Shown here piece after piece: positions 500-36,070 of a stretch of 64,000 nucleotides of DNA. Under the pieces are notes generated by a model that saw only the letters and a program-made list of their open reading frames with translations, was not told the DNA's origin and did not search any database. The DNA comes from Prevotella sp. Its GTDB lineage: Bacteria; Bacteroidota; Bacteroidia; Bacteroidales; Bacteroidaceae. The stretch is from contig JAFZIZ010000001.1 of NCBI GenBank assembly GCA_017554145.1, positions 62,001 through 126,000 of the forward strand, given 5' to 3'. A program made the position numbers and the translations under genes. Within the stretch, counting starts at the first letter, position 1, and each line of letters begins with the position of its first letter.

Positions 500-534
500 T
501 AAGGGTTAAAGATTAAACATTAAATATTAAAAAC
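500..534. repeat. Heptanucleotide array, five units, intergenic
   Basis: Five consecutive 7-mers of the form TAARNNT (TAAGGGT, TAAAGAT, TAAACAT, TAAATAT, TAAAAAC) fill most of the gap between speA and the next gene and end one base before its ATG region. The period is exactly 7 bp. Confidence 0.8.
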
Positions 535-535
535 T

Positions 536-1450
536 ATGATCAATATTAAAAACCTTCATCGCGTATCGCGAGTCATCATCTTGATGACAGTTGTCTTGGT
601 AGGCATGAGTTCCTGCAAGACACAACAAACCCTGACGTATGGGGATGCTGTTGACTGGACCAAAGCACGTTATGGTAAACTCATCAATAAGTATATCAAG
701 GATGCGGGCAACAAACTCGATCCTGACGAGATGCGCCTGCTGTTCACACCCATCGGCTATGATGGAGGTTCCAATACCGTCTATTATCGTGATGCAGAGC
801 GCCTATTGGTGGATACCGTCTATTCCGTCATGCTGCAGAAAGCTGTGGCAGAGGGCAAGACCAGTATTGTTATCTTCACAGGTCCTTCTGCCAGTGGAAA
901 GAGTACGGCTGCCAAGACGATGGACTTTACGAATACAGGTCTGGTGTATGACGCTGCCTTCAACACTTATAAGAAACTCGCCACTGCCATCAAGAAAGCA
1001 GAGAGAGCCGGTATGAAAGACGTGAAGGTGATTGCCGTCTACAATACCGTCCGCAACTGTTTCAAGAACTCAGTAGACAGAGGTAAGACCAGCAAGCGTT
1101 TCATCCATATCCCTTATATGATAGAGTCGTTTGGTAATAATGTCAACAAGATGCAGCAGTTGAAGGATAACTTCCCTGAGGTGGAGTTTATCTGTTTTGA
1201 CAAAAGCGACAATGTGAATGCCAAGCGTGTCAGTCTGGACGAGGCTTGCAAATGGAACTTCAATGTCAGTCAGGACGACATCCAATACCTCTTTAATATT
1301 ATGCTCGATGAGATCAATAAGGGCGACCTCACACCACATCAGTTGACCTATGTAGCAGGTGACGTCTTATCTATTGAGGGACTGTCGGATTCCAATAAGG
1401 CACTCGCCAAAGAGATTGACAGAAGAATCAAAGCATTGTCAAAAGAATGA
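536..1450 (+). CDS. Predicted lipoprotein with zeta-toxin-like P-loop kinase domain
   Basis: This is a 304-residue protein. The N-terminus has a hydrophobic segment (about residues 12-24) ending in the lipobox VGMSSC, giving a predicted acylated Cys27. A clear Walker A motif, GPSASGKST, lies at about residues 116-124. It is followed by a region (about 135-190) that resembles zeta-toxin/AAA kinases: a helix with many lysines and the segment VIAVYNTVRNCFKNSVDR, like the substrate-binding strand and helix of that family. Zeta kinases phosphorylate UDP-N-acetylglucosamine or related substrates, normally in the cytoplasm. An exported lipidated version would be odd because ATP is not expected outside the membrane. 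No antitoxin gene is adjacent. The stop codon overlaps the argB start (ATGA), implying translational coupling. The substrate is unknown. It could be a housekeeping envelope protein rather than a toxin. Confidence 0.7.
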   Translation: MINIKNLHRVSRVIILMTVVLVGMSSCKTQQTLTYGDAVDWTKARYGKLINKYIKDAGNKLDPDEMRLLFTPIGYDGGSNTVYYRDAERLLVDTVYSVMLQKAVAEGKTSIVIFTGPSASGKSTAAKTMDFTNTGLVYDAAFNTYKKLATAIKKAERAGMKDVKVIAVYNTVRNCFKNSVDRGKTSKRFIHIPYMIESFGNNVNKMQQLKDNFPEVEFICFDKSDNVNAKRVSLDEACKWNFNVSQDDIQYLFNIMLDEINKGDLTPHQLTYVAGDVLSIEGLSDSNKALAKEIDRRIKALSKE

Positions 1451-2220
1451 AAGAGAAACTGACCATAGTAAAGGTAGGCGGGGCTGTCGTCGAAGACGAA
1501 CAGCAACTCTCTCAGTTACTGAAGGACTTCAGTGCCATCGAAGGATGTAAAGTGCTCGTTCATGGTGGAGGTCGTAAGGCTACGAAGATGGCAGAACGTC
1601 TAGGGATAGAGACCCAGATGGTCAATGGTCGCCGTATCACGGATGCTGCTATGTTGGAGGTGGTCACGATGGTCTATGGAGGGCTGGTGAACAAGAATTT
1701 AGTGGCACAACTGCAGGCAAACGGTGTCAACGCCCTCGGACTTACTGGTGCCGATGCCAATGCGATTATCTCACACAAGCGTCCTTTGAAAGATGGTGTT
1801 GACTATGGGTTTGTAGGTGATGTCGATGCAGGTAACGGTGAGATGCTCAGTAAACTGATAGAGGCTGGCATCACCCCTGTAATGGCTCCATTGACACACG
1901 ACGGCAAGGGACAGATTCTCAATACCAATGCCGATACTATTGCCAGTGAGACAGCCAAAGCCCTCGCAGCTATCTACGACGTGACACTCATCTTCTCGTT
2001 TGAGAAGAAAGGTGTGCTTCGTAACCCTGACGACGATGACAGCGTGATACCTGTCATTACCCATGAAGATTTTGAGAGATATAAGGCAGACGGTACTATC
2101 TCTGGTGGTATGCTGCCCAAGATAGAGAATGCCCTGAATGCCGTAGAGGCTGGTGTCTCACGTGTCATCATCACCCTCGCTACGGCTATTGACGGTCAGC
2201 ATGGAACGGTGATACAATGA
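1447..2220 (+). CDS. argB: Acetylglutamate kinase
   Basis: This 257-residue protein of the amino-acid kinase family phosphorylates N-acetyl-L-glutamate in the second step of arginine synthesis. The N-terminal phosphate-binding KVGGAVV (about residues 6-12), the glycine-rich loop LVHGGGRKATKMAERLG (about 37-53), the substrate segment GLTGADAN and the nucleotide-site region NTNADT and SGGMLPKIENAL near the C-terminus are all present in the expected order. Length is normal for the family. The start overlaps the previous stop and the ECF sigma gene start overlaps this stop, so three genes are linked by ATGA overlaps. The product is cytoplasmic and may be feedback-inhibited by arginine, but the sequence alone does not settle that. 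Confidence 0.93.
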   Translation: MKEKLTIVKVGGAVVEDEQQLSQLLKDFSAIEGCKVLVHGGGRKATKMAERLGIETQMVNGRRITDAAMLEVVTMVYGGLVNKNLVAQLQANGVNALGLTGADANAIISHKRPLKDGVDYGFVGDVDAGNGEMLSKLIEAGITPVMAPLTHDGKGQILNTNADTIASETAKALAAIYDVTLIFSFEKKGVLRNPDDDDSVIPVITHEDFERYKADGTISGGMLPKIENALNAVEAGVSRVIITLATAIDGQHGTVIQ

Positions 2221-2717
2221 TCAATTTCCACCACGATATCCTTCCTCTGAAAGACAGACTTTTCAGACTTGCCCTCCGCATCACACTCAATCCAGCGGAG
2301 GCAGAGGACGTGGTACAGGAAACGATGATGAAAGTATGGAGCCGTCGGAACAACTGGGACGCCATCGATAATATCGAGACCTTCTGTCTGACCATCTGTA
2401 GAAACCTTGCCCTTGACAAGACTCGTCACATGGGCAATCACACCCTTTCGCTGGATTTGGAAACGGAGCCCACAGACCAGAGCCACCATTCAAATCCGGA
2501 GGAACAGACCATGCAACGTGATCGCATACGACTGGTAAGACGACTTATCGACCAGTTGCCAGAGAAACAACGCAGTTGCATGCAACTAAGAGATATCGAA
2601 GGGAAGAGTTATAAGGAGATTGCCGACATCATGGGAATCAGTGAAGAACAGGTGAAAGTCAATATATTCCGAGCGCGACAAACCATTCGTGAACAGTTCA
2701 AAAAAGCAGATTCCTGA
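2217..2717 (+). CDS. ECF-type RNA polymerase sigma-70 factor
   Basis: This 166-residue protein has the two-domain layout of extracytoplasmic-function sigma factors. Region 2 spans about residues 10-75, with the core-binding motif AEDVVQETMMKVW. Region 4 spans about 105-160, with LPEKQRSCMQLRDIEGKSY and the helix-turn-helix EIADIMGISEEQVKVNIFRARQ that would read the -35 element of its target promoters. It starts inside the argB stop codon (ATGA overlap). The next gene, 81 bp downstream, encodes a small single-pass membrane protein that is a natural candidate for its anti-sigma partner. The regulon is not evident, and no obviously autoregulated promoter could be picked out. Confidence 0.92.
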   Translation: MINFHHDILPLKDRLFRLALRITLNPAEAEDVVQETMMKVWSRRNNWDAIDNIETFCLTICRNLALDKTRHMGNHTLSLDLETEPTDQSHHSNPEEQTMQRDRIRLVRRLIDQLPEKQRSCMQLRDIEGKSYKEIADIMGISEEQVKVNIFRARQTIREQFKKADS

Positions 2718-2798
2718 AAATTTTTCATTTTTCCTGTAACTTTTCTTCTTGTCATTCGTCTTATAATATAGAGGACCAAAAATCCCTCAAGTGAAATA

Positions 2799-3287
2799 AT
2801 GGATTATAAGTACATCGAACAACTCTTGGAACGCTACTGGGCAGCAGAGACCTCTCTCGAAGAAGAAGGTATCCTGCGTGCTTTCTTCAGTCAGAAGGAT
2901 ATCCCTGCTGAGCTGGAGCAGTATCGCGACCTCTTTGTCTATGAGCTGACAGAGAAGGAGAACGAGACGTTGGGAGATGACTTTGACGAGCGCATCCTGG
3001 CTATGATAGAAGAGGAGCCACGTACTGTCAAGGCACGCGAGATTCCTTTCAAGAAGCGTCTCATGCCGCTCTTCAAGGCTGCCGCCGTCGTTGCCATTAT
3101 CCTCACCATAGGTGGTGCACTACAGCGTCCTTGGGATGCTAGTTGGAACGATCCGCACGTAGAATATGCGAACTCCTACAATCTCTCTGTAGATTCTGCG
3201 GATGTCACCCCTATCCAGGCAGAAAATGTCACTGACATGCCTGCCGACAGCGCAAAGACAATACCTGTCGATGTGGCTAAGGACTAA
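2799..3287 (+). CDS. Single-pass membrane protein, probable partner of the upstream sigma factor
   Basis: This 162-residue protein has an acidic, mainly helical N-terminal half (about residues 1-85), one hydrophobic segment (about 93-108, FKAAAVVAIILTIGGAL) and a short C-terminal tail rich in Asp, Val and Pro. It has no signal peptide, so the N-terminal half is expected in the cytoplasm. That layout, a cytoplasmic helical domain before one membrane span and directly after an ECF sigma gene, is typical of anti-sigma factors. I see no zinc-binding HxxxCxxC motif and cannot assign it to a family, so the role is inferred from position only. The 81-bp gap before it is AT-rich and contains TATAAT-like sequence but no clear TAnnTTTG box. 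The gap after it (3288-3434) holds one hairpin. Confidence 0.6.
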   Translation: MDYKYIEQLLERYWAAETSLEEEGILRAFFSQKDIPAELEQYRDLFVYELTEKENETLGDDFDERILAMIEEEPRTVKAREIPFKKRLMPLFKAAAVVAIILTIGGALQRPWDASWNDPHVEYANSYNLSVDSADVTPIQAENVTDMPADSAKTIPVDVAKD

Positions 3288-3392
3288 AGGAATTTTCTAT
3301 GCTTTCTCTATATTAATATCATGTTTAGTTAAAACAATCATGAAACTGTGAAGTTTCTGTTCTCTCAAATTTTTCATAACATACTAACGAAA

Positions 3393-3428: not shown

Positions 3429-3434
3429 GATAAT

Positions 3435-4241
3435 TTATGCGGCTCGCTTCATCCAGAGATGGAGTTGATAAAGCGCTGGAAGGAGGATGAGCAGGGAGAA
3501 GAAGACAGCGAGATAGACATGGAGTTCAGAGCCCTTGAAGAGGTCGATGAGTTTCATGTCTTGGTCTGGATAGGCGTGATAGAGGATATAGGCCACACTA
3601 TTGTTTGCCCAATGGTAGGCCATTCCTGGCAGGATACTACCTGTACGCCAATACATCCAACCCAACAACAATCCTGCGATAAAGGCATAAGGCATTTGGG
3701 CAGGATTCATGTGGACAAGAGCAAAGAAGAGGGCGGAAATGATGATAGCGGGAAACGCATGGCTGTTGGCTATTGGCTGTTGGCCATTGGTTTTATTCCA
3801 TCCCAATAAACTACGAAGGATAGCTCCACGAAAGACAATTTCTTCTGCAAGAGGTGCCAACAGACCGATGGCAAGATACCCCCAATAGTCGCCTAACAAC
3901 ATCTCCTGCTGGTCTTCTATCCAGTTAGGCAGCTCTGGCATATTCTCCTGTAACCAGGTCATAGGAATAATCATTCCCAGTGCCGCAATCACAGCCCACA
4001 CTAATACGAACCACTGTTTGGTAGCCATCCAACGAGGAGATACCTCTGCCCATCTTGCACCAAGGAATACGGCAATCACCATCACACTAAACACGACCAT
4101 AGAAACGACGAGTTCTATGACTGTGATATCCGTACTTCCTAATACCTGTTGCCATATCAAATGAACCAGAACACCAGCAACTCCCTGTATGGCTAGAAAT
4201 ACCAACGCATATACAAATGCACTTATAATCGGTTTCTTCAT
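3435..4241 (-). CDS. CPBP family intramembrane glutamic endopeptidase
   Basis: This 268-residue polytopic membrane protein belongs to the CPBP (type II CAAX prenyl endopeptidase-like, ABI) family. The conserved motif 1, EEIVFRG, is at about residues 133-139 (catalytic Glu pair plus Arg). The second conserved histidine is in FFALVHMNP (His177) and the third motif is YHWANN (His210 and Asn). About seven hydrophobic segments are visible. The substrate is unknown. The start overlaps the ribF stop by 4 bp, so both are translated from one mRNA with ribF first. Residues about 150-160 (WNKTNGQQPIANSHAF), between motif 1 and the next helix, are encoded by a 7-bp-period repeat and look like a lineage-specific insertion. 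Confidence 0.88.
   Translation of the reverse strand: MKKPIISAFVYALVFLAIQGVAGVLVHLIWQQVLGSTDITVIELVVSMVVFSVMVIAVFLGARWAEVSPRWMATKQWFVLVWAVIAALGMIIPMTWLQENMPELPNWIEDQQEMLLGDYWGYLAIGLLAPLAEEIVFRGAILRSLLGWNKTNGQQPIANSHAFPAIIISALFFALVHMNPAQMPYAFIAGLLLGWMYWRTGSILPGMAYHWANNSVAYILYHAYPDQDMKLIDLFKGSELHVYLAVFFSLLILLPALYQLHLWMKRAA
3759..3793. repeat. Heptanucleotide array inside the CPBP protease gene
   Basis: Five 7-mers: ATGGCTG, TTGGCTA, TTGGCTG, TTGGCCA, TTGGTTT. They lie in frame inside the coding sequence and encode a polar loop between two conserved motifs. Confidence 0.85.
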
Positions 4242-5179
4242 ATCTTTAACTCTTCAGTTCTTTTTTTGTCTTCGTCTAATTGTGCCTTTAACTCTTCCAG
4301 ATTGTCAAAGTGACGCTCATCACGCAGTCGCTCAATGAAACTCACCTGTATCTCCTGTCCATAGAGATCGCCCTCATAATCGAGGATATGTACCTCCAAG
4401 GTCTGAGCATGTACTCCAAAAGTTGGACGAGTGCCGATGTTCATCATGCCTGTTAGCTGTTGGCTGTTAGCCATTAGCAATTGGCATCTTACGGCATAGA
4501 CACCGGGGGCGGGGATGAGTTTACGAGAATCGCTGGGTAACAGGTTGGCAGTAGGATAACCTAACTCCGTACCGATATGTTCTCCTTTCACCACCTTCCC
4601 CTTCATACTATATGGATAACTCAGACACAGGGCAGCATCTTTGACTTTGCCTTCTGTCAATAGTCTTCGAATGACAGAAGAACTGATGTGAGAAGTAAGA
4701 GATAAGAGGTTAGAAGTAAGAGGAGGGAGACTTTCCACTTCGATTCCAATCTTTTTGCCATAGCGGACATCGTCTTCAAAAGTGTCTTGGCGATTGTGTC
4801 CGAAACGATTGTCATAACCCATCAGCAGTACTTTGACGCCCAACTGCTCCTTCATCATCACCATAAAGTCATGAGCCGACAGAACAGACATCTCTGGTGT
4901 GAAATGCAACACCTTCACATAGTCGATACCTGTTTCTGCAAGCAGTCGCATACGCTCATCGTTCGTCGTCAGTAACAGAGGCTTCCAGTCTGTCTGTACC
5001 ATCTCACGAGGATGACAGTCAAAGGTGATGACCATTGACTTCAAACCCTGCTGTTTCGCATAGTCGCAAACATGACTCAACACAAAACGATGCCCCTTAT
5101 GTACTCCATCAAACATTCCGATGGTGGCTACACAAGGATTTGTGACCTGCTGATTGTCTTTTAATAACAACGTCTCCAT
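4238..5179 (-). CDS. ribF: Bifunctional riboflavin kinase / FAD synthetase
   Basis: The 313-residue protein makes FMN and then FAD from riboflavin. The N-terminal nucleotidyltransferase domain carries ATIGMFDGVHKGH near residues 18-30 and a second conserved stretch, GYDNRFGHNR. The C-terminal flavokinase domain has GKVVKGEHIGTELGYPTAN followed by PGVYAV. I start the gene at the ATG giving METLLLKDN. The open frame runs 24 codons further to a GTG, but that region holds a TAnnTTTG-type box and does not resemble the family. Two 7-bp-period arrays sit inside the gene: one at 4685-4726 between the domains (LPPLTSNLLSLTSH) and one at 4454-4488 in the flavokinase domain (LLMANSQQLTG). Both fall in loops away from the motifs. 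The CPBP gene follows with a 4-bp overlap. Confidence 0.93.
   Translation of the reverse strand: METLLLKDNQQVTNPCVATIGMFDGVHKGHRFVLSHVCDYAKQQGLKSMVITFDCHPREMVQTDWKPLLLTTNDERMRLLAETGIDYVKVLHFTPEMSVLSAHDFMVMMKEQLGVKVLLMGYDNRFGHNRQDTFEDDVRYGKKIGIEVESLPPLTSNLLSLTSHISSSVIRRLLTEGKVKDAALCLSYPYSMKGKVVKGEHIGTELGYPTANLLPSDSRKLIPAPGVYAVRCQLLMANSQQLTGMMNIGTRPTFGVHAQTLEVHILDYEGDLYGQEIQVSFIERLRDERHFDNLEELKAQLDEDKKRTEELKI
4454..4488. repeat. Heptanucleotide array inside ribF (flavokinase domain)
   Basis: Five 7-mers: TTAGCTG, TTGGCTG, TTAGCCA, TTAGCAA, TTGGCAT. The pattern resembles the array at 3759 but is not identical. Confidence 0.85.
4685..4726. repeat. Heptanucleotide array inside ribF (interdomain)
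   Basis: Six 7-mers: GATGTGA, GAAGTAA, GAGATAA, GAGGTTA, GAAGTAA, GAGGAGG. On the coding strand they give a Leu/Ser/Thr-rich segment with a 7-residue periodicity (LTSNLLS then LTSHISS). Confidence 0.85.
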
Positions 5180-5188
5180 AAGCGGAGG

Positions 5189-5196
5189 CAAAATTA
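5189..5196 (-). promoter_or_regulatory. -7 box for ribF
   Basis: On the minus strand TAATTTTG fits the Bacteroidetes -7 consensus TAnnTTTG and lies about 9 bp before the chosen ribF start, leaving a very short leader. No convincing -33 element was seen. Confidence 0.5.
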
Positions 5197-5215
5197 CAAA
5201 AAAATATCTGAATTG

Positions 5216-5246
5216 TTGCAGGTTTGAAGAAAAAGCATTACCTTTG
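5216..5246 (+). promoter_or_regulatory. Promoter of tRNA-CAT
   Basis: TTG at 5216-5218, a 20-bp spacer, then TACCTTTG at 5239-5246. This matches the -33/-7 pattern of the Bacteroidetes primary sigma factor and lies about 20 bp before the tRNA. Confidence 0.75.
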
Positions 5247-5267
5247 CACACTGAAAAGTGAATAATC

Positions 5268-16037: not shown

Positions 16038-17921
16038 TTATTTCTTCTTTCTGGGTTTACGGATAGCCCACCCCTCTTCACTGAAATCAGGAATATCCCC
16101 CTTCAACTTCATCTTCTCTGGATGAAGGAACTGCATCCATTCGTCCTTAGAATATGTCTTTTTGTTGGCGGGCTCTTTAGTCGCTTTGGGTTTTCTGGCA
16201 TCTCTGGAAGGTCTAGGATATCTAGACGTTCTAGATTCTTTAGATACTCTAGTGTCTTTGGAGGGTTTAGGTTCATCAGCATCGTTGCAACGTACCTCAC
16301 GACCTTTATAACGCTGTCCGTTGATGTATTTCATTACGCGCTGGGCATCTTCCTCGGGTATATCAAAATAAGATTGGGTATTTAACAGGTCAATATGTCC
16401 TACATCTACATGACCACGCACATTCTTATTTAAGAATTGCATCAGTTCGCCAGGATAGAAACCGTCTTTCTTGCCTAAGTTAATAAACAGACGACGATAG
16501 CCTGCCTCTGCTTGACGAGGGCCATTACCTCTCTTATCGCCTATTCTGCCTCTACCATCTTCCCTCTTACCTCTTCCGTCTTCCTTCCTACTTTTTACTT
16601 CAGAAATCTCTGGGGCATCAGCATAATAAGCTAAGAACTTACCAAACTCCATGGATACGATCTTCTTGATGAGGTCCTCTTTGTCGACATACTCGAAATA
16701 ACGATTGATATCCGTCATAAACGGAGCAATCTGCTCTTCGTCCACATCTGCCTTCACAATCTGATCCATCACCTTGTAGAGTTGTTTCTTGCAAATCTCC
16801 TCGGCAGAGGGGATCTTTCCCTCTTCGAAAGCCTTGCCAATCTCTTTCTCGATGTTACGGATTTTATGTTTCTCACGTGAGTGAACGATACTCAGTGATG
16901 TTCCTTTCTTGCCGGCACGACCTGTACGGCCACTGCGATGGGTATAGTTCTCAATATCGTCAGGTAGTCCGTAGTTGATGACGTGGGTGAGGTCGTCAAC
17001 ATCCAAACCACGTGCTGCTACATCCGTGGCTACCAACAACTGAACGGTATGCTGACGGAATTTCTGCATCGTCAGGTCGCGTTGCTGTTGTGAGAGGTCA
17101 CCATGTAGGCTCTCTGCGTTATATCCGTCCTTAATCAGTTTATCTGCTACCTCTTGTGTCTCTATCTTCGTGCGACAGAAGATGATGGCGAAGATACGAG
17201 GATAGAAGTCTACCAACCTTTTTAGAGCAAGGTATTTATCCTTGGCGTTCACCATATAATAAATATGGTTCACATGCTCAGCACCCTCATTACGTGAACC
17301 AACGACAATCTCCTTGTAGTCATGTAAATAACCTTTGGCAATACGTTCAATCTCACGACTCATCGTCGCAGAGAACAACAGGGTGTTACGTTCTGTTGGC
17401 ACACCTTCCAAGATAGCATCGATACTCTCCGAGAAACCCATGTTCAACATCTCGTCAGCCTCGTCAAGCACGACATTATAGACATCATCCAACTTCGCTA
17501 CGCCACGCTTCATCAGATCAATCAGTCGACCAGGTGTAGCAACGATAATCTGTACGCCCTTACGTAGCGAACGGATTTGCTGTTCGATAGATGCACCTCC
17601 ATAGACCGCCTCAATATGAATGCCGTCCATGTATTTCGAGAAATCACGTAAGTCGTCAGTAATCTGCAAACACAGTTCACGGGTGGGACTCAAAATCAGC
17701 GCCTGCGTCTCCTTGCGCGACGAATCGATGCGCTGCAATACTGGGATACCGAATGCAGCCGTCTTACCCGTTCCCGTCTGGGCAAGGGCAATGACGTCAT
17801 TCTGATTACCAAGCAAATAAGGGATAACTTCCTCCTGTACGGGCATGGGTTGTGTGAAACCCAATTCCTCAATGGCGTGACGAATCTCTTCGCAAACGCC
17901 TAACTCTTCAAATGTCTTCAA
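16038..17921 (-). CDS. DEAD-box ATP-dependent RNA helicase (DeaD/CsdA-like)
   Basis: This 627-residue protein has the full DEAD-box set: Q motif GFTQPMPVQ (about 21-29), Walker A AQTGTGKT (47-54), PTREL, DEAD in VVLDEADEML, SAT in LFSATMSREIERIA, and motif VI HRSGRTGRAG. A C-terminal DbpA-like RNA-binding domain follows (YRRLFINLGKKDGFYPGELM and later VGHIDLL). Such enzymes remodel RNA in ribosome assembly and cold adaptation. Two linkers are unusual. The one before the RNA-binding domain is Arg/Lys/Asp/Gly-rich and encoded by an 11-unit 7-bp array (16526-16602). The tail is a run of Xaa-Xaa-Arg/Lys triplets encoded by a 9-bp CTAG array (16177-16275). Its promoter belongs to repeat family B, shared with the SufT-like gene. 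Confidence 0.93.
   Translation of the reverse strand: MKTFEELGVCEEIRHAIEELGFTQPMPVQEEVIPYLLGNQNDVIALAQTGTGKTAAFGIPVLQRIDSSRKETQALILSPTRELCLQITDDLRDFSKYMDGIHIEAVYGGASIEQQIRSLRKGVQIIVATPGRLIDLMKRGVAKLDDVYNVVLDEADEMLNMGFSESIDAILEGVPTERNTLLFSATMSREIERIAKGYLHDYKEIVVGSRNEGAEHVNHIYYMVNAKDKYLALKRLVDFYPRIFAIIFCRTKIETQEVADKLIKDGYNAESLHGDLSQQQRDLTMQKFRQHTVQLLVATDVAARGLDVDDLTHVINYGLPDDIENYTHRSGRTGRAGKKGTSLSIVHSREKHKIRNIEKEIGKAFEEGKIPSAEEICKKQLYKVMDQIVKADVDEEQIAPFMTDINRYFEYVDKEDLIKKIVSMEFGKFLAYYADAPEISEVKSRKEDGRGKREDGRGRIGDKRGNGPRQAEAGYRRLFINLGKKDGFYPGELMQFLNKNVRGHVDVGHIDLLNTQSYFDIPEEDAQRVMKYINGQRYKGREVRCNDADEPKPSKDTRVSKESRTSRYPRPSRDARKPKATKEPANKKTYSKDEWMQFLHPEKMKLKGDIPDFSEEGWAIRKPRKKK
16177..16275. repeat. 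9-bp CTAG-type array in helicase C-terminal tail
   Basis: CTAG or a one- or two-base variant (TTAG, CTGG, TTGG) recurs every 9 bp at 16177, 16186, 16195, 16204, 16213, 16222, 16231, 16240, 16249, 16258 and 16267. The intervening 5-mers vary. Being a multiple of three, it encodes tripeptides such as VSK, ESR, TSR, YPR, PSR. Confidence 0.88.
16526..16602. repeat. Long heptanucleotide array in helicase linker
   Basis: Eleven 7-mers in register, including TACCTCT, TGCCTCT, ACCATCT, TCCCTCT, TACCTCT, TCCGTCT. They encode 7-residue repeats such as KEDGRGK and REDGRGR before the RNA-binding domain. Confidence 0.85.
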
Positions 17922-18006: not shown

Positions 18007-18017
18007 CCTATAAATTA

Positions 18018-18076
18018 TTCCCACGTTGGGAACAAAATATTCCCATGTTGGGAATGAAACGTTCCCACGTTGGGAA
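18018..18076. repeat. Three 15-bp palindromes at 22-bp spacing
   Basis: TTCCCACGTTGGGAA (18018-18032), TTCCCATGTTGGGAA (18040-18054) and TTCCCACGTTGGGAA (18062-18076) each have perfect 6-bp arms around a 3-nt centre. They lie in the divergent promoter region between the helicase and the P-type ATPase. The 22-bp spacing is two helical turns, which would place all three on one DNA face, as in an operator array. Confidence 0.85.
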
Positions 18077-18144: not shown

Positions 18145-20121
18145 ATGGCACATGAACATCATCACGAACAAGAGTGTTGCAACCATGAACATGAGCATCA
18201 TCATGAGCATGGACTGAAGAAACAACTGACACTCATCATCCTGACTGCCATCCTGCTGGTGGCAGCGGTCATTATAGAGAAAACCTGTAGTCTCGCCACA
18301 TGGCAACTGCTACTCGTCTATCTCGTACCTTATTTATTAATAGGTCACGAGACACTGATGGAAGCGGCAGAAGGTATCATGCACGGCGAGGCTTTCAACG
18401 AGCATTTCCTAATGTCGGTGGCTACCATCGGTGCCCTCTGTATCGGTTTCCTTCCTGGTGCCGAGACAGAGTTTCCTGAGGCAGTCTTCGTCATGCTGTT
18501 CTTTCAAGTGGGTGAACTCTTCGAGGGTTATGCCGAGGGGAAGAGTCGTGAGAGTATTGCCCATCTGATGGATATCAGACCAGATGTAGCGCATCTTGAG
18601 TTAAGAGGTAAGAAAGAAGAAGTAAGAGATGCAAGTCCTGAAGAGGTAGAAATTGGTTCTGTCATTGTCATTCGTCCTGGTGAGAAAGTGCCGTTGGACG
18701 GTGTTGTCATTGAAGGAGCCTCATCGCTCAACACCATTGCACTGACGGGTGAGTCGATGCCTCGTGAACTGACTATTGGTGACGAGGTGATATCCGGGTG
18801 CGTCAATCTCTCGGGTGTTATTAAGGTACGTACGACGAAGAGTTTTGGGGAAAGCACTGTCTCAAAGATTATCGAACTGGTGGAACACGCCAGTGAGCAT
18901 AAGTCACAGAGTGAGACGTTCATCACCCGTTTTGCACGTATCTACACCCCTATTGTGGTATTTGCCGCCATCGCCCTTGCCGTCATCCCGCCTCTTTGCG
19001 CTCATTTCTCACTCCTCATTCCTCATTCCTCATTTGGCGAAGCCTTCCCCACATGGATTTACCGTGCCCTGATGTTCTTAGTAGTCTCTTGTCCTTGTGC
19101 CCTCGTTATCAGTGTACCTCTCACCTTCTTCGGAGGTATCGGTGGTGCCTCAAGGAAGGGAATACTCATCAAGGGAGCGAACTATATGGATGTGTTGGCC
19201 AAGGTGGATACCGTTGTGTTCGACAAGACGGGAACGCTCACCCATGGACAGTTTGCAGTGGAAGCCGTTCATCCCGACACTTGTGACGAACACCAGTTGC
19301 TACACTTGGCAGCCCATGTGGAACACTACTCTACCCATCCCATCGGGGCAGCCCTTCGTGACGCCTTCCCCGATGAAGCGACAGACGGTTGTCAACTCTC
19401 TGACGTAGAGGAAATCGCAGGACAGGGCATCAAAGCGAAAGTGGAAGGAAGAGAAGTATGCGTCGGCAATACGAAGTTGATGGATGCCATTGGTGCCAAA
19501 TGGCATGACTGCCATCATGTAGGCACCATCATCCATGTCGCCATCGACGGCGAATACGCAGGACATATCGTCATCAACGATAAGATCAAAGAAGACAGTG
19601 CAGAGGCTATCACACAACTGAAGGCTTTAGGTGTCCGTAAGACGGTGATGCTGACAGGTGACCGTAAGGAAGTAGGTGCCCATGTTGCCCAAACGCTTGG
19701 TATCGACGAGTATCATGCAGAACTGTTGCCTGCGGATAAAGTTGCATTCTTTGAGAGTGGAGAACGGAGAGTGGAGAACGGAGAGTCTGCAACCGCTTTC
19801 GTTGGCGACGGTATCAACGATGCCCCCGTTTTGGCTCGTGCTGATGTAGGTATTGCGATGGGAGGATTAGGCAGTGATGCTGCTATCGAGGCTGCTGACG
19901 TGGTATTGATGGACGACCATCCCTCGAAGATTGCTCTTGCCATCCGTATCGCACGCCGTACCCTTGCTATCGCCAAACAGAACGTCTGGTTTGCCATTGG
20001 TGTCAAGGTCGCTGTCCTCTTATTGGCTGCTGTGGGTATTGCCACCATGTGGCTTGCCGTCTTTGCCGATGTCGGCGTTACCGTCCTTGCCGTACTCAAT
20101 GCCATGAGGGCGCTAAAATAA
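18145..20121 (+). CDS. Heavy-metal P-type ATPase (Zn/Cd/Pb exporter type)
   Basis: This 658-residue P1B ATPase pumps soft or transition metals out of the cytoplasm. The N-terminus (residues about 1-25) is very rich in His with one CC pair (MAHEHHHEQECCNHEHEHHH) and replaces the usual HMA metal-binding domain. The membrane metal site is SCPCALV. Phosphorylation is at DKTGTLTHG, followed by the HP motif THPIG and the hinge VGDGINDAPVLARADVGIAMG. CPC plus a His-rich tail points to Zn2+/Cd2+ rather than Cu+. Three 7-bp arrays are embedded: 18600 in the actuator domain region, 19001 in the loop before the CPC helix, and 19752 just before the GDGIND hinge. An array of palindromes lies upstream. Confidence 0.93.
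   Translation: MAHEHHHEQECCNHEHEHHHEHGLKKQLTLIILTAILLVAAVIIEKTCSLATWQLLLVYLVPYLLIGHETLMEAAEGIMHGEAFNEHFLMSVATIGALCIGFLPGAETEFPEAVFVMLFFQVGELFEGYAEGKSRESIAHLMDIRPDVAHLELRGKKEEVRDASPEEVEIGSVIVIRPGEKVPLDGVVIEGASSLNTIALTGESMPRELTIGDEVISGCVNLSGVIKVRTTKSFGESTVSKIIELVEHASEHKSQSETFITRFARIYTPIVVFAAIALAVIPPLCAHFSLLIPHSSFGEAFPTWIYRALMFLVVSCPCALVISVPLTFFGGIGGASRKGILIKGANYMDVLAKVDTVVFDKTGTLTHGQFAVEAVHPDTCDEHQLLHLAAHVEHYSTHPIGAALRDAFPDEATDGCQLSDVEEIAGQGIKAKVEGREVCVGNTKLMDAIGAKWHDCHHVGTIIHVAIDGEYAGHIVINDKIKEDSAEAITQLKALGVRKTVMLTGDRKEVGAHVAQTLGIDEYHAELLPADKVAFFESGERRVENGESATAFVGDGINDAPVLARADVGIAMGGLGSDAAIEAADVVLMDDHPSKIALAIRIARRTLAIAKQNVWFAIGVKVAVLLLAAVGIATMWLAVFADVGVTVLAVLNAMRALK
18600..18634. repeat. Heptanucleotide array in P-type ATPase (weak)
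   Basis: GTTAAGA, GGTAAGA, AAGAAGA, AGTAAGA, GATGCAA. The units are degenerate but stay in 7-bp register, encoding LRGKKEEVRDA. Confidence 0.55.
19001..19035. repeat. Heptanucleotide array in P-type ATPase extracytoplasmic loop
   Basis: CTCATTT, CTCACTC, CTCATTC, CTCATTC, CTCATTT. It encodes AHFSLLIPHSSF between two membrane segments just ahead of the CPC helix. Confidence 0.88.
19752..19786. repeat. Heptanucleotide array in P-type ATPase P-domain
   Basis: TGAGAGT, GGAGAAC, GGAGAGT, GGAGAAC, GGAGAGT. It encodes FESGERRVENGES directly before TAFVGDGIND. Confidence 0.9.
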
Positions 20122-20245: not shown

Positions 20246-20566
20246 ATGACACAAGAAGAGAAAACGCAACTGGAAGAACGTATCGTGGATGTGTTGAAAA
20301 CCGTCTACGACCCTGAGATACCTGTCAATATCTACGACCTCGGCATGATCTATAAGATAGACGTACAGGAGGACAGTAGCGTAGAACTTGACATGACTTT
20401 TACGGCGCCCAACTGTCCTGCCGCCGACTTCATCTTAGAAGATGTACGTACGAAGGTGGAAAGTGTGGAAGGCATCACCTCGGCTAACGTCAATCTCGTC
20501 TTCGAGCCTGCTTGGGATCAGTCGATGATGAGTGAAGAAGCAAGAGTCGAACTAGGATTCGACTGA
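20246..20566 (+). CDS. MIP18/DUF59 family protein, SufT-like iron-sulfur assembly factor
   Basis: This 106-residue protein is made of one DUF59 (MIP18) domain: VLKTVYDPEIPVNIYDLGMI near residues 14-33, then the conserved MTFTAPNCPAADFI with the family cysteine at about residue 57, and VNLVFEPAWDQSMMSEEAR at the C-terminus. Proteins of this kind help mature Fe-S proteins. No suf cluster is next to it here. I start at ATG 20246 because it sits a sensible distance after the -7 box; the longer reading to 20147 would cross the promoter repeat. A 7-bp array overlaps the stop codon and leads straight into lpxH, so the two genes are probably one transcript. Confidence 0.88.
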   Translation: MTQEEKTQLEERIVDVLKTVYDPEIPVNIYDLGMIYKIDVQEDSSVELDMTFTAPNCPAADFILEDVRTKVESVEGITSANVNLVFEPAWDQSMMSEEARVELGFD

Positions 20567-20599
20567 TGTAAGAGGTTTGATGTAAGATGTAAGAAGTTA
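20565..20599. repeat. Heptanucleotide array spanning the sufT-like/lpxH junction
   Basis: GATGTAA, GAGGTTT, GATGTAA, GATGTAA, GAAGTTA. The array begins in the stop codon of one gene and ends on the first base of the next gene's ATG. Confidence 0.9.
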
Positions 20600-23557: not shown

Positions 23558-23560
23558 TAT

Positions 23561-23588
23561 AATCTTTAACCTTTAAACTTTAACCTAT
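23561..23588. repeat. Heptanucleotide array between pta and ackA
   Basis: AATCTTT, AACCTTT, AAACTTT, AACCTAT. It covers the whole gap and the pta stop codon. Confidence 0.8.
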
Positions 23589-26413: not shown

Positions 26414-26476
26414 TATGTTTCTGCACCGAGAACTTATGTTTCTGCACCGAGAACTTATGTTTCCGCACCGAGAACT
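26414..26476. repeat. Three tandem 21-bp repeats, intergenic
   Basis: Units at 26414-26434, 26435-26455 and 26456-26476 are identical except for one T-to-C change in the third. The core is GTTTCTGCACCGAGAACT. They sit in the roughly 460-bp gap between folP and murF. Confidence 0.92.
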
Positions 26477-26556
26477 TATATACCACGCCTGAAAACATAA
26501 AATAATAAACATGGCAAAATCTTATAAAGTTAAGAAAAGTCGAGCGTCTCAGAAAA

Positions 26557-26584
26557 AAACTCTAAACTCTAAACTCTAAACTTT
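26557..26584. repeat. Heptanucleotide array upstream of murF
   Basis: AAACTCT three times, then AAACTTT. It is the most regular of the 7-bp arrays. Confidence 0.9.
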
Positions 26585-26691: not shown

Positions 26692-28068
26692 ATGGATATT
26701 AAGAAACTCTATAAACTTTACCAACAGCATCCGTATATCACGACAGACTCGAGGGACTGCCCTAAAGGCAGCATCTTTCTCGCTCTGAAGGGTGAGTCGT
26801 TCAATGGCAACCAATTTGCCATGCAAGCCTTAGAGAAAGGATGCGCCTATGCTATTGTGGATGAAGCCCCCTCCAACCTCCCCCAACAGGGGACGGCTTT
26901 TGCTGACCGGGTTATTGTTGTGAAAGATGCATTGCAGACCTTCAAGGACCTCGCCCGTGAGCATCGCAGGCAGTTTGATATCCCTGTAGTTGGTATTACA
27001 GGTACGAACGGTAAGACGACGACGAAGGAACTCATCCGTGCCGTCCTTGCAGAATGTTACAATGTGATGGCTACGGAAGGTAATTTCAACAATGATGTGG
27101 GAGTACCCAAGACGCTGTTCCGTTTAACAAAAGAACACGACATTGCCGTCGTAGAGATGGGTGCCTCGCATCCTGGCGACATCAGGACACTGGTAGAGAC
27201 AGCAGAGCCGACTAGTGGACTTATCACGAATGTGGGTCGCGCCCACCTGTTGGGCTTCGGTTCTTTTGAAGGTGTCTGCAAGACGAAGGGCGAACTGTAT
27301 GATTACCTCATCAGTCATGATTGTCCTCTCTTCGTCAATCGCGACAATGAGCATCTCATGCAAATGATATCCAATCACCAATCACCAATCAACAATCACC
27401 AATCACCCGACATCTACTACTACGGTCAAAGCGACTCAAAAGACATCCTGATACATGGTGAAGTCGTCAGTTGTGCACCGTTCCTGAAGTTCCGCTGGCG
27501 TGAGCAAGACGATGATGCCGGCTATACAAGTGAATGGATGGAAGTACAGACGCATCTCATCGGAGCCTATAACCTTGATAACATACTGGCTGCCATTACC
27601 CTGGGTTACGTCAATAACGTTCCCTTCGAACAGATCAACCATGCTATCGCCAATTATGTCCCGTCTAACAACCGTTCTCAGATGACTGTGACGGAGCATA
27701 ACCACCTCGTCGTAGATGCCTATAACGCCAATCCGACGAGTATGAAGGCTGCCATTGATAACTTCAAACTGATGGAGGTTTCACCCAAAATGGCGATTAT
27801 CGGTAAGATGGGAGAGTTGGGGGATGTCGAACAGGAAGAACATCAGAAGGTGGTGGATATGCTTGCCAATGCCCATTTCGACAAAGTATGGCTCGTCGGT
27901 GACGAATTTAGCAACTGTCAACTGTCAATTGCCAACTGTCAACTCTTCCATGATGTCGAAGAAGTTAAAAAAGCGCTAACCGCTAACCACCAACCGCTAA
28001 CCGGATATTATATCCTTATCAAAGGCTCGAACAGTAACAAACTCTTCCAATTGCCAGAACTGTTATGA
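26692..28068 (+). CDS. murF: UDP-N-acetylmuramoyl-tripeptide--D-alanyl-D-alanine ligase
   Basis: This 458-residue Mur ligase adds D-Ala-D-Ala to the peptidoglycan precursor in the cytoplasm. The N-terminal domain has TDSRDCPKGSIFLALKGE for UDP-substrate binding. The ATP-binding P-loop is GITGTNGKTTTKEL, followed by TEGNFNNDVGVPKTL and EMGASHPGDI. The C-terminal domain has DAYNANPTSMKAAIDNF and IGKMGELG. The start is the ATG giving MDIKKLYKL; the longer reading begins at the -7 box. Three 7-bp arrays are built into the gene: at 27371 (SNHQSPINNHQSPDI), 27912 (SNCQLSIANCQLF) and 27974 (KALTANHQPLTG). All are in surface-type loops of the central and C-terminal domains. A lipoprotein gene follows with a 4-bp overlap. 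Confidence 0.95.
   Translation: MDIKKLYKLYQQHPYITTDSRDCPKGSIFLALKGESFNGNQFAMQALEKGCAYAIVDEAPSNLPQQGTAFADRVIVVKDALQTFKDLAREHRRQFDIPVVGITGTNGKTTTKELIRAVLAECYNVMATEGNFNNDVGVPKTLFRLTKEHDIAVVEMGASHPGDIRTLVETAEPTSGLITNVGRAHLLGFGSFEGVCKTKGELYDYLISHDCPLFVNRDNEHLMQMISNHQSPINNHQSPDIYYYGQSDSKDILIHGEVVSCAPFLKFRWREQDDDAGYTSEWMEVQTHLIGAYNLDNILAAITLGYVNNVPFEQINHAIANYVPSNNRSQMTVTEHNHLVVDAYNANPTSMKAAIDNFKLMEVSPKMAIIGKMGELGDVEQEEHQKVVDMLANAHFDKVWLVGDEFSNCQLSIANCQLFHDVEEVKKALTANHQPLTGYYILIKGSNSNKLFQLPELL
27371..27405. repeat. Heptanucleotide array 1 in murF
   Basis: CCAATCA, CCAATCA, CCAATCA, ACAATCA, CCAATCA. It encodes a 7-residue repeat (NHQSPIN, NHQSPDI). Confidence 0.93.
27912..27946. repeat. Heptanucleotide array 2 in murF
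   Basis: CAACTGT, CAACTGT, CAATTGC, CAACTGT, CAACTCT. It encodes NCQLSIA then NCQLFHD. Confidence 0.92.
27974..28001. repeat. Heptanucleotide array 3 in murF
   Basis: CGCTAAC, CGCTAAC, CACCAAC, CGCTAAC. It is only 28 bp after array 2 and encodes LTANHQPLTG. Confidence 0.88.
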
Positions 28069-30943: not shown

Positions 30944-30978
30944 GAAATTTCTCTTTCCTCATTTCACATTTCTCATTT
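30944..30978. repeat. Heptanucleotide array before tRNA-Pro
   Basis: GAAATTT, CTCTTTC, CTCATTT, CACATTT, CTCATTT. It ends 8 bp before the tRNA -7 box and resembles the array at 19001. Confidence 0.75.
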
Positions 30979-31025: not shown

Positions 31026-31098
31026 CGGGATGTAGCGCAGTTGGTAGCGCACTACGTTCGGGACGTAGGGGTCGGGCGTTCGAGTCGCCTCATCCCGA
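31026..31098 (+). tRNA. tRNA-Pro (CGG)
   Basis: The 73-nt cloverleaf has acceptor CGGGATG pairing with CATCCCG, D-arm GCGCAG-TTGGTA-GCGC, and anticodon stem CTACG/CGTAG around TTCGGGA, giving anticodon CGG. The T-arm GGGCGTTCGAGTCGCCT has an imperfect pair at its base. The discriminator is A and no CCA is encoded. C1 and the CGG anticodon are typical of tRNA-Pro. Confidence 0.95.
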
Positions 31099-31111
31099 CA
31101 ATGTAGAAGAA

Positions 31112-32185: not shown

Positions 32186-32206
32186 ACATTAATACTTGAC
32201 CGCATT

Positions 32207-33296: not shown

Positions 33297-34648
33297 ATCA
33301 CACCTAATTGATGCAAGAAAACAAGGATAATACAGATAGGACAAACGAAACGGACAGCAAAAAGATAGATGCTGAATAATCGTCCTTTAAGCATTCCATC
33401 ATTAGTAAACTCATCCTTCACAATCTGCCTGGGAACATACCAACCCACAAAAAGACAGGTAAGCATCGCTCCTGTCGGCAAGAGGAAGTTCGCCGTCAGA
33501 TCATCGCAGAAGTCCATCAAAGACTTGCCCAACAACTGTAAATCGGTATAAGCACCCACAGACAGGGCACAGAATACACAGATGATACCTGCAATAAAAG
33601 TGATAACCCATGCGGACTTCCAACGCGGTAAGGATAGTTCCTCTGTAAAGAAAGCCGTACCTATCTCATGCATGGAAATGGTAGAGGTAAGTGCCGCGAA
33701 GACCAACAAGGCATAGAACATGATGCTGACCACATAGCCCACCATCGGCATCGAGGCAAATGCCTGTGTGAAGACATTCGGTAAAGTGATAAAAATCAAC
33801 GAGGGACCACTGTCGGGATTTACCCCTACCGAGAAGGCAGCAGGGAAAATCATCAATCCTGCGAGTATCGCTATCAGCGTATCCACCAACGCTATCTGTC
33901 CTGCAGATTGCAGCAAGTTGGTATCTTTCGAGAAATAACTGGCATAGGTACACAGGCAAGCCGTTCCTAACGATAAAGAGAAGAACGCTTGTCCAAGTGC
34001 TTCTAACATCACACTGCCCGACAATTTCGAGAAGTCGGGATGCAATAGGAACTTAACACCTTCTATAGAACCTGGTAGCAAACAAGAGGCAACTACCAGA
34101 ATGAGTAACAAGATGAGAAGAACGGGCATCAGCAACTTTGAGGCGCGTTCAATACCATTCCGTACACCGCGTATCACTACAAGATGAGTTATCAAGATAA
34201 AGCCAGCACCCCATAAGACAGGTCTCAGTGGATCACTGGAGAAAGTCACGAAATAGTTCTTCACTGCCTCAGCATCACCATTGACCTGTCCGACTATCGA
34301 AGCACACAGATATTCCAAGCACCAACCAGCCACGACAGCATAGAAACCTAAGATGATGGTAGAGGTAAGTATTCCCAAATAACCTACCAACTTCCAAGGG
34401 CGACCTTCCGCCAATGCATCATACGACCGTGCTGCATTTGCCTGTCCATGACGACCGACAATAAACTCACTGACCATCCCAGGGATACCCAACACGAGAA
34501 TACATGCAATATATATCAATATAAAGGCAGCGCCGCCATTCTCTCCTACTGTATAGGGAAAACGCCATACGTTACCCAAACCGACAGCAGAGCCTGCCGT
34601 AGCAAGCACTATACCTATCTTACTTCCGAAATTACCTCTGTCCTTCAT
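33293..34648 (-). CDS. Sodium-dependent neurotransmitter-symporter family transporter (second of tandem pair)
   Basis: This 451-residue protein with about 11-12 membrane segments is of the SNF/NSS (LeuT-fold) family. TM1 has the broken-helix signature GSAVGLGNVWRFPY (about residues 19-32) that contains the sodium and substrate site. The segment GVNPDSGPSLIFITLPNVF (TM6 region) is the second unwound helix. It probably imports an amino acid or similar amine with Na+. It overlaps its upstream paralogue by 4 bp, and the HhH gene overlaps it by 4 bp, so all three form one translation-coupled set. The substrate cannot be deduced. Confidence 0.93.
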   Translation of the reverse strand: MKDRGNFGSKIGIVLATAGSAVGLGNVWRFPYTVGENGGAAFILIYIACILVLGIPGMVSEFIVGRHGQANAARSYDALAEGRPWKLVGYLGILTSTIILGFYAVVAGWCLEYLCASIVGQVNGDAEAVKNYFVTFSSDPLRPVLWGAGFILITHLVVIRGVRNGIERASKLLMPVLLILLLILVVASCLLPGSIEGVKFLLHPDFSKLSGSVMLEALGQAFFSLSLGTACLCTYASYFSKDTNLLQSAGQIALVDTLIAILAGLMIFPAAFSVGVNPDSGPSLIFITLPNVFTQAFASMPMVGYVVSIMFYALLVFAALTSTISMHEIGTAFFTEELSLPRWKSAWVITFIAGIICVFCALSVGAYTDLQLLGKSLMDFCDDLTANFLLPTGAMLTCLFVGWYVPRQIVKDEFTNDGMLKGRLFSIYLFAVRFVCPICIILVFLHQLGVI

Positions 34649-36015
34649 TTCAATAATCCGAATTGATGTAAGAAAATCAATAAGATCGCCAACGGACAGA
34701 TATACTTCACCAAGAAGAGGAAGACATGGAACATGCGGACATAGCCAATGCTCCTTAAAGTACCCCCATTCGTAAACTCATTTCTCACTATCTGATGCGG
34801 CACAAACCAACCAATGAAAATACAAGTCAGGAAACCGACTATCGGCAGGAATATCTGTCCCGTGATGAAATCAAACCAATCGAACAACGACTTACCAAAA
34901 ATCACCATTCCATCAACAGCACCCAACGATAACGAACAGAACGTTCCGATGATGGCAGTTAAAATCGTCACAATCAGCGCTGCCTTCTTACGACTGACGG
35001 TCATCTCCTCATGGATGAATGCCGTGCTTACCTCGTGCAACGACATTAAAGAAGTCAGGGCAGCAAGCGATAACAGAACGAAAAACAGCAACGAGATACA
35101 ATAGCCTAACACTGGTATTGAGCCAAATGCCTGTTGAAACACATTCGGCAACGTGATAAATATCAGTGAAGGACCACTATCAGGATTCACGCCTACCGAG
35201 AAAGCAGCAGGGAAGATCATCAGTCCTGCGAGTATTGCCACCATACAGTCGATGATAGCTATCTGTGATGCTGACCTTGTCAGGTTTGTCTCTTTGGCGA
35301 AATAACTGGCATAGGTACACAGACAACCCATCGCGATACTCAATGAATAGAAACTCTGTCCCAAGGCACCAAGGAACACATCGCCTGTGAACTTCGACAT
35401 GTCGGGCTTAAACAAGAACTCAATACCCTTGTCGGCATTCGGCAACATACAGGAAGCCCCCACAATAATCAATAACAGGATAAACAGTGTTGGCATCAGC
35501 AACTTCGAAGCACGCTCAATACCGTCACGTACGCCATGCGCTATAATTAAATAGGTAACACCTAATATAATGATTGTCCATAACACAGGTTTCACAGGAT
35601 CAGTGGATAACTCCGTGAAATAGGTCTTAAAATATTCTGGGTCACCTTGTAGATGTCCTATCAATGAAGCCCAGATATATTGCAAGCACCAACCACTGAC
35701 CACCGCATAATAACCCGTAATCAGAAAACCCGTCAGTACACCCATATAGCCAATCAATGCCCAAGGTGTTCCACCAGCCAACCTACGATAGGCGCGCGCC
35801 GTATTCGCCTGTCCATGACGACCAACAATAAATTCACTAATCATGCAAGGGATACCCAGCAGGACCACACATATCACATAGATCATGATAAAGACGGCAC
35901 CACCGTTCTCTCCCGTCATATAGGGGAAACGCCATACATTACCTAAGCCGACTGCAGAGCCTGCCGTAGCAAGAATGACGCCTAACTTACTGCCAAAATT
36001 CGCTCTATCACCCAT
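34645..36015 (-). CDS. Sodium-dependent neurotransmitter-symporter family transporter (first of tandem pair)
   Basis: This 456-residue LeuT-fold transporter is close in sequence to the following gene along its full length: both have GSAVGLGNVWRFPY, ENGGAAF/ENGGAVF, SEFIVGRHGQAN and GVNPDSGPSLIFITLPNVF. The pair clearly arose by tandem duplication. Differences concentrate in the loops and in TM8-TM12, so they may have different substrates or work together. It is first in a minus-strand operon with a -7 box at 36036. Confidence 0.93.
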   Translation of the reverse strand: MGDRANFGSKLGVILATAGSAVGLGNVWRFPYMTGENGGAVFIMIYVICVVLLGIPCMISEFIVGRHGQANTARAYRRLAGGTPWALIGYMGVLTGFLITGYYAVVSGWCLQYIWASLIGHLQGDPEYFKTYFTELSTDPVKPVLWTIIILGVTYLIIAHGVRDGIERASKLLMPTLFILLLIIVGASCMLPNADKGIEFLFKPDMSKFTGDVFLGALGQSFYSLSIAMGCLCTYASYFAKETNLTRSASQIAIIDCMVAILAGLMIFPAAFSVGVNPDSGPSLIFITLPNVFQQAFGSIPVLGYCISLLFFVLLSLAALTSLMSLHEVSTAFIHEEMTVSRKKAALIVTILTAIIGTFCSLSLGAVDGMVIFGKSLFDWFDFITGQIFLPIVGFLTCIFIGWFVPHQIVRNEFTNGGTLRSIGYVRMFHVFLFLVKYICPLAILLIFLHQFGLLK

Positions 36016-36035
36016 ATTAGTTAAGTTTCCGCTTG

Positions 36036-36043
36036 CAAAAGTA
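36036..36043 (-). promoter_or_regulatory. -7 box for the transporter operon
   Basis: On the minus strand, TACTTTTG fits TAnnTTTG and lies about 20 bp before the ATG at 36015. Confidence 0.55.
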
Positions 36044-36049
36044 TAAATT

Positions 36050-36070
36050 AATTAAGAATTAAGAATTAAG
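36050..36070. repeat. Heptanucleotide array between divergent promoters
   Basis: AATTAAG three times between the transporter and VanZ-like gene promoters. Confidence 0.8.

Follow-up and report, generated by a model that had tools for sequence, protein, structure and literature searches.

What kind of process produces, or tolerates, many short tandem arrays that share a 7-bp period while their sequences differ? We asked this of a 64-kb window of a Prevotella sp. genome (the window being the whole stretch of 64,000 nucleotides analyzed here, positions 62,001 to 126,000 of contig JAFZIZ010000001.1, assembly GCA_017554145.1), in which a sequence-only reading had claimed about seventeen arrays with an exact 7-bp period, ten of them of five units, and none from 36.1 to 64 kb. 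The source genome amounts to 2.8 Mb in 38 contigs and is 84% complete; the nearest named matches to the window are rumen and gut Prevotella and Xylanibacter. We detected arrays in two ways, with Tandem Repeats Finder and with our own period scan. At a score of at least 9, the scan found 15 period-7 arrays, compared to a mean of 0.35 over 20 third-order Markov copies of the window, and their starts (497, 3760, 4450, 4685, 16551, 19001, 19753, 20579, 23560, 26557, 27371, 27912, 27971, 30948, and 36050) fall within ~25 bases of those first read. At the same score, period 6 yielded 4 arrays (expected 0.5) and period 8 yielded 1 (expected 0.6). Ten of the 15 are 31–37 bp long, or about five units, and the scan found none beyond 36,072, both as had been read. 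The claim of an exact period stands for the register of seven bases but not for the copies themselves, since most arrays show substitutions between copies; exact runs occur only at 26557 and 36050, and of the 15 arrays, 14 are either short or imperfect at some point. Thus, the existence of period-7 arrays is confirmed.

The preference for seven extends to the wider genome and to related species. In a 1.16-Mb sample of the source genome (the window plus 1.10 Mb), scanned at a score of at least 11, period 7 accounts for 177 arrays, whereas periods 6, 8, and 9 account for 10, 29, and 18, respectively, and one Markov copy of the sample has no period-7 array; the excess over periods 6 and 8 on which the sequence-only reading depended therefore holds at this scale. 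Similarly, 80 named loci around ackA (1.41 Mb in total, the best 80 of a longer match list) contain 259 period-7 arrays, compared to 10, 42, and 47 of periods 6, 8, and 9, with at least one period-7 array in 69 of the 80. Cultured strains are represented too, for example Prevotella communis E15-14 (L077, complete genome), with 6 arrays in its 21 kb, Xylanibacter brevis ATCC 19188 (L052), with 5, and X. ruminicola D31d (L070), with 3. The trait is patchy within the genus: in the 15 genomes compared, for most of which density rests on 19–40 kb each, the arrays per 100 kb range from 30.0 (G008), 26.7 (G018), and 21.7 (G007) through 15.3 in the source genome to 7.6 (G035) and 1.0 (G024), and there are none in the 20–40 kb examined of each of G002, G003, G005, and G011. 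Nor did we find any in 361 kb sampled as a single piece from each of 20 genomes that belong to other families of the order. Together they form a single class of heptanucleotide short tandem repeat across much of the ruminal Prevotella/Xylanibacter group. We also note that periods 8 and 9 are likewise above chance, and that four relatives (L082, L089, L087, and L102) carry arrays of period 8–10 as well as hairpins with such arms.

The arrays share a size as well as a step. Among 482 arrays from the source genome, the named loci, G007, and G035, the median length is 32 bp (quartiles 29 and 35), which supplies the shared array length that had been proposed as something to look for; 40 of the 482 exceed 42 bp, and these are imperfect. 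We examined the limit in exact runs, adding pieces of twelve other genomes to this set, and found 92 runs of at least 22 bp, which reduce to 70 after grouping by flank. Forty flank-grouped runs reach at least 26 bp, 27 of them measuring 29–34 bp, and no exact period-7 run in the set is longer than 34 bp, where five copies would take 35. The per-base stopping rate of exact runs is ~13% at 26–31 bp and over half from 32 bp; if the rate were constant, the lack of any run over 34 bp would have a probability below 1e-6 by our own arithmetic. Other periods show no comparable second peak of exact-run length, and at period 8 a single run reaches 43 bp. The median array is 33 bp in genes and 32 bp in promoters, and the share of arrays within 29–35 bp is 79% for those at promoters, 56% for those deep in genes, and 42% for the rest. 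Thus, we conclude that the step is 7 nt and the block ~32 bp, and that exact runs stop short of a fifth full copy.

The sequence of the unit, by comparison, is nearly free: 436 arrays from the source genome and the named loci represent 137 of 1172 possible unit classes, the commonest of which contain no GGG on either strand. A period shared by so many units, genome-wide and spread over the genus, is what would be expected of the process proposed at the outset, one that makes or tolerates 7-bp units.

Comparison of orthologous sites revealed that the unit turns over while site, period, and in some cases exact length remain. Among 1127 orthologous comparisons of array with array, which are directed and not independent, the units lie within one base of each other in 274 and differ at two or more of seven positions in 853; among random array pairs, 4.6% are within one base. 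Where flank identity is at least 90%, the unit is the same or has one change in 40 of 58 comparisons. Total array length is equal in 284 of the 1127, including cases in which the unit was replaced at identical length (L064/L082 at 35 bp; L048/L082 at 32 bp), and only 2% of pairs with different units differ by 7, 14, or 21 bp. We observed one single-unit difference of 7 bp (48 bp in L037, 41 bp in L094) and one three-unit difference of 21 bp (L093/L068, 95% flank identity). Shared arrays differ by substitutions (L077/L088; L037/L043/L094), as expected if they decay like ordinary DNA, and mismatches within arrays are retained between related species. Concerted evolution by homogenization is rejected, since related species keep identical mismatches inside arrays.

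Many arrays lie within genes. Of the 436, 156 lie 60 bases or more within predicted genes, 92 of the rest adjoin a TAnnTTTG box, and 188 lie elsewhere, between genes or at gene ends. For 180 arrays in predicted open reading frames (ORFs; called by a simple script), the unit is stop-free on the sense strand with a stop on the other strand in 94, compared to 20 with the reverse; 40 have no stop on either strand and 26 have stops on both. Arrays in genes are translated, and this strand bias points to selection for translation. In the window, we found a TGGCTGT-type array (3760..3790) within the gene for an Rce1-like CAAX protease (3435–4241, minus strand), and both a CTGTTAG-type array (4450..4486) and a degenerate GAAGTAA-type array (4685..4721) within ribF (riboflavin kinase/FAD synthetase, 4238–5251, minus strand). 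A degenerate TCTTCCC-type array (16551..16600) lies within a DEAD-box helicase gene (16038–17921, minus strand). The gene for a heavy-metal P-type ATPase (18145–20121, plus strand) carries a CTCATTC-type array (19001..19034), where the array-free orthologue in L082 is 36 bp shorter, and the array GAGAGTG GAGAACG (19753..19784), at a position where relatives have other inserts. Three plus-strand arrays lie within murF: CCAATCA (27371..27407), which encodes SNHQSPINNHQSP in a length-variable segment, CAACTGT (27912..27944), which encodes NCQLSIANCQL, and AACCGCT (27971..28003). Alignment of MurF with 16 orthologues placed all three in poorly conserved segments that vary in length between species; in the C-terminal loop at 27912..27944, different arrays are present in L094, L048, and L074, and none in L082 or L064. 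Thus, the arrays within genes are not conserved protein sequence, which would have refuted the sequence-only reading, but sit in frame in variable loops. When coding arrays were compared to array-free orthologues (654 comparisons at 55 sites), the length difference is a multiple of 3 in 485, and is flat modulo 7 (zero in 111 of 654).

Arrays also occupy a particular place at promoters. A TAnnTTTG box, the −7-like element, adjoins 13 of 62 intergenic arrays in the source genome, compared to 186 of 3660 random intergenic windows (5.1%), and 66 of 137 intergenic arrays in relatives, compared to 194 of 4768 (4.1%). We then took TA[CT][CAT]TTTGC sites outside gene interiors, of which 62 lie within 12 bases of the end of an array and 414 do not, and scored a −33 element as TTG 20–25 bases upstream of the −7 box. 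The −33 TTG is kept in 3 of the 62 array promoters compared to 185 of the 414 array-free promoters (Fisher 5e-11, with orthologous promoters counted repeatedly). Thus, arrays at −7 boxes occupy the place where the −33 element normally lies. Since 3 of 62 is approximately the chance level, and since orthologous promoters recur in the counts, what these numbers show is that arrays stand where the −33 element would be, not that they act like one. In the window, the exact array AAACTCT (26557..26582), intergenic and upstream of murF, is followed by the −7-like box tttttataccTTTG, and a TTTCTCA-type array (30948..30978) lies directly upstream of TACCTTTGC in the promoter region of tRNA-Pro (31026–31099). 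Upstream of tRNA-Pro, the TTTCTCA type is also present in L078, L080, and L082, and an AATTATC/AATTGTC type in L048, in all cases before TACCTTTGC. The persistence of −7 boxes beside changing arrays argues that such promoters still work, and the array probably serves as upstream promoter DNA. The suggestion that arrays are tolerated may thus be incomplete for promoters, where more than tolerance may act because the arrays sit exactly at the −33 position. Separately, in the promoter region upstream of murF (L066 at 7268, L106 at 7267, L043 at 2754, and L037 at 7243 are involved), one array is present among relatives in two orientations, AATTATG and its exact reverse complement CATAATT, between inverted flanks, which would reflect either inversion in place or independent origin.

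The four remaining arrays of the window lie at gene junctions or between genes. The array GGTTAAG GGTTAAA GATTAAA CATTAAA TATTAAA (497..531) separates two ORFs (stop at 492, ATG at 536), a GATGTAA-type array (20565..20597) marks the junction of an FeS-assembly gene and the next ORF (ATG at 20599), the exact array AATTAAG (36050..36072) is intergenic, and a TAACCTT-type array (23560..23586) lies in the pta-ackA spacer, where relatives have different arrays or different repeats. Thus, array sites are places that tolerate ~30 bp of foreign sequence: gene junctions, the upstream parts of promoters, and variable protein loops. The pta-ackA spacer (L032–L111; 23558–23584 in the window) is a hotspot where 79 relatives carry unrelated inserts, some of them arrays, some hairpins whose arms are CCTCCC/GGGAGG or CCGTGTAATCCGTGCC, and others elements of ~400–700 bp with inverted ends.

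We consider that the arrays are best explained by one-step misaligned repair or lagging-strand synthesis in 7-nt steps, with arrays kept where they are tolerated, an explanation that we prefer tentatively and hold at somewhat less than an even chance. Specifically, a single event would create each array, most probably when repair or lagging-strand synthesis is misaligned and the growing 3′ end, over a short patch, repeatedly slips back by 7 nt, such that several copies are gained together; the burst of synthesis would end below five copies. After birth, the array would decay through point mutation, and a later event could overwrite an old array at a tolerant site, such that site, period, and length persist under a changing unit. 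Next to a −7 box, the array would replace the −33 element. We favor a burst of misaligned synthesis because coding arrays need the gain of several copies at once, as single 7-bp steps in essential genes such as murF or ribF are frameshifts, and because the size common to genes and promoters suggests the same event elsewhere.

Several observations weigh against this explanation. No array birth was observed between strains, the comparisons being among relatives. Exact units are shared by 2.5% of 15,070 pairs within the source genome compared to 0.9% of 45,843 pairs with relatives (weakly so in the named loci, 3.3% within compared to 2.5% between), and a purely local origin of units does not predict sharing within a genome. 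Origin of the unit from local sequence is itself weakly borne out: a unit occurs within one mismatch in 34 of 96 array-free orthologous stretches compared to 24.8 for anagrams, and although 1 of 300 shuffles reached as high, decayed arrays could account for the excess. The unit carries a sense-strand stop in 46 of the 180 ORF arrays, which may come from miscalled ORFs or from arrays that are short or imperfect. The loops that hold coding arrays vary in length among array-free orthologues too, so the flat modulo-7 lengths are weak evidence, and the in-frame length differences at coding arrays are only suggestive. Finally, some inverted pairs of arrays and the TTTGCTACCGC module described below point to elements that move.

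If instead 7-bp units are gained and lost singly by slippage at equilibrium, with gains prevailing in short arrays and losses near five perfect copies, a peak near the limit and a steady replacement of units would follow. This would agree with the polymerase preference for 7-nt slippage proposed by Mrazek and colleagues (as cited in PMC4692102 and PMC4679880), with a ceiling that is limited to exact runs, given the imperfect arrays over 42 bp, and with the single-unit difference between L037 and L094. However, growth by single units in an essential gene would require frameshifts that it cannot survive, arrays at orthologous sites whose units differ are seldom apart by whole units in length, and the mismatch patterns kept between related species have not been homogenized, and for these reasons we regard stepwise slippage as doubtful. 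The arrays might also be small mobile or dispersed repeats, similar to repetitive extragenic palindromes or miniature inverted-repeat transposable elements (MITEs), that have heptad arrays as arms and are spread by some transposase. Indeed, of 155 pairs of arrays less than 1 kb apart, 23 agree to within one base in inverted orientation, compared to 4.5% of random pairs (in direct orientation, 11 of 155 compared to 4.6%), units are partly genome-specific, and most of the 18 TTTGCTACCG sites come after an AAGAGTG- or AGTTTAG-type array, several of them in hairpins. A module in which one of these two array types precedes TTTGCTACCGC, in some cases within a hairpin formed with inverted arrays, recurs in L038, L048 (inside the P-type ATPase gene), L075, L077, L096, and others, and in the source genome in L160; a minority of arrays lie in hairpins or in elements of ~400–470 bp with inverted arrays at both ends. 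Arrays in these settings may move as elements. In contrast, most arrays have no constant sequence, inverted repeat, or shared flank. Block copying between sites, initially suggested by 33 pairs of identical imperfect stretches of at least 22 bp, fell to 31 once nearby duplicates were excluded, compared to means of 21.5 for unit-order shuffles and 20.4 for column shuffles (maxima 33, in 100 shuffles, and 34), and is kept only as weak. Since Y1 transposase was also not found in the array-bearing genomes G008 and G035, we think it improbable that mobile repeats account for the arrays. Thus, the early claim that no single mobile element was copied stands for the diversity of units, but needs qualification for the partial sharing of units, the TTTGCTACCGC module, and the inverted pairs; the reading as a whole, a 7-bp-unit process and not one mobile element copied, is largely supported.

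Selection at promoters offers a different account, in which the cell would recognize the array as an upstream promoter element by its period or DNA shape, and not by its sequence, and the arrays in genes are by-products. The frequency of TAnnTTTG boxes beside arrays, the loss of the −33 TTG, and the uniform length of promoter arrays, the most uniform of all, are consistent with it. However, of the 156 arrays deep in genes only 7 are beside a −7-like box, a −33 TTG at the chance level requires no active exclusion, and the orthologous promoters counted are not independent; we therefore find it an unlikely origin of the arrays. We likewise give a low probability to a bolder combination, period-coded promoters, in which ~32 bp of any suitable heptad repeat ending 3–9 bp upstream of the −7 box would substitute for the −33 element, such that promoter function would survive full replacement of the sequence, while a repair process of the same bacteria would keep making blocks that stop before the fifth copy. 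Chance, composition, or assembly artefact is scarcely credible: several of the genomes are metagenome assemblies, but Markov copies yield none to a few arrays and the presence of arrays in cultured strains contradicts such an origin.

We searched 15 genomes, as incomplete assemblies, for candidate enzymes. Reverse transcriptase (PF00078) was not found in 7 of 15, including the array-bearing G000, G004, G007, G008, G018, and G035; Y1 transposase (PF01797) was found in 10 of 15 but not in 5, including G008 and G035 (90% and 94% complete); and Y-family polymerase (PF00817) was found in 14 of 15 but not in the source genome. Each is rejected as the cause, being missing as searched from at least one array-bearing genome. 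MutS is rejected as well, MutS_V having been found in 15 of 15. Array-poor genomes more often carry a third MutS_V ATPase (L256 1423–2889, minus strand; L257 183–1544, plus strand), which has hydrophobic stretches by eye and which NCBIfam cut-offs do not class as mismatch-repair MutS. This difference (one-sided P = 0.06 with 15 genomes and 0.009 with 50) comes from a post hoc comparison uncontrolled for phylogeny that we did not use.

Two longer tandem repeats and the array-free half of the window deserve mention. Just upstream of murF (26414–26479), a 21-bp unit is repeated 3.1 times at 97% identity without an internal period of 7, and before the P-type ATPase gene (18012–18076) a 22-bp unit, AAAATATTCCCACGTTGGGAAC, is present three times; period 22 is also raised genome-wide (28 arrays compared to 0 in the Markov copy). 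The array-free half holds a fimbrial gene set (46391–54834; FimA, Fimbrillin_C, Mfa2, DUF3868 and DUF3575 proteins) flanked by ORFs of 3143 and 3030 amino acids (36956–46387 and 54893–63985), with no Pfam match in either.

Heptanucleotide repeats are already known in other bacteria. Cyanobacteria have them (short tandemly repeated repetitive sequences), and these had been named as the nearest precedent. In 250 of the 366 kb of Trichormus variabilis plasmid A, we found nine period-7 arrays (compared to 4 of period 6 and 1 of period 8), all with different units and 20–33 bp long, a comparison that bears the precedent out with diverse arrays of about four units, on a plasmid only and at approximately a quarter of the density found here. 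Seven is the favored unit length of long simple sequence repeats in many bacterial genomes, for which slippage was proposed (Mrazek et al. 2007, as cited in PMC4692102 and PMC4679880), and tandem 7-nt units above chance are what we observe; as cited there, that work is an abundance survey, with size ceiling, unit turnover, and −33 replacement not among the cited content. The arrays of Xanthomonas and Nostoc (GGGAATC and GGGGA(T/C)T; Rehm et al. 2015, PMC4692102) resemble ours in being genome-wide heptamers with a four-unit preference, in varying between relatives at shared sites, and in being intergenic and partly intragenic. However, each has one G-rich unit, in up to 26 copies, and its four-unit preference is linked to G-quadruplexes, whereas the Prevotella units are diverse and mostly lack the G-tracts of at least three that mark the GGGAATC type. 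Since our units are mostly not G-rich and the preference for about four units is equal, quadruplexes cannot explain the size preference here. The TAACTGA repeats of Beggiatoaceae, some cyanobacteria, and five Bacteroidetes, for which a translational role was proposed, are likewise short heptamer arrays of sporadic distribution, often near start codons (MacGregor 2015, PMC4679880). In contrast to ours, they have one fixed unit in two to six copies, with related heptamers rarely repeated and long arrays elsewhere, while 137 unit classes occur among the Prevotella arrays, which lie also in conserved enzymes and at −7 boxes. The BrickBuilt MITE of Porphyromonas gingivalis, also of the Bacteroidales, ties tandem repeats to promoter activity and inverted ends, but is described (PMC4596501) as a single, always intergenic family of 19 copies with a 23-nt unit, unlike the diverse 7-nt units here. 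We found no paper on such arrays in Prevotella in the open-access literature, a search that mostly leaves subscription journals outside. Within that literature, the size limit independent of sequence, the turnover of units at fixed sites, the in-frame presence in conserved enzymes, and the replacement of the −33 element look new.

Why seven is the favored long repeat unit of bacteria is an old open question, and hundreds of arrays of free sequence with a sharp size limit at many orthologous sites make it testable in culturable rumen bacteria. A size limit without G-tracts means that the four-unit preference reported in other systems need not imply quadruplexes. The arrays show the in-frame gain of loop sequence by conserved enzymes, and if array promoters work without a −33 element, models of Bacteroidetes promoters would need an addition.

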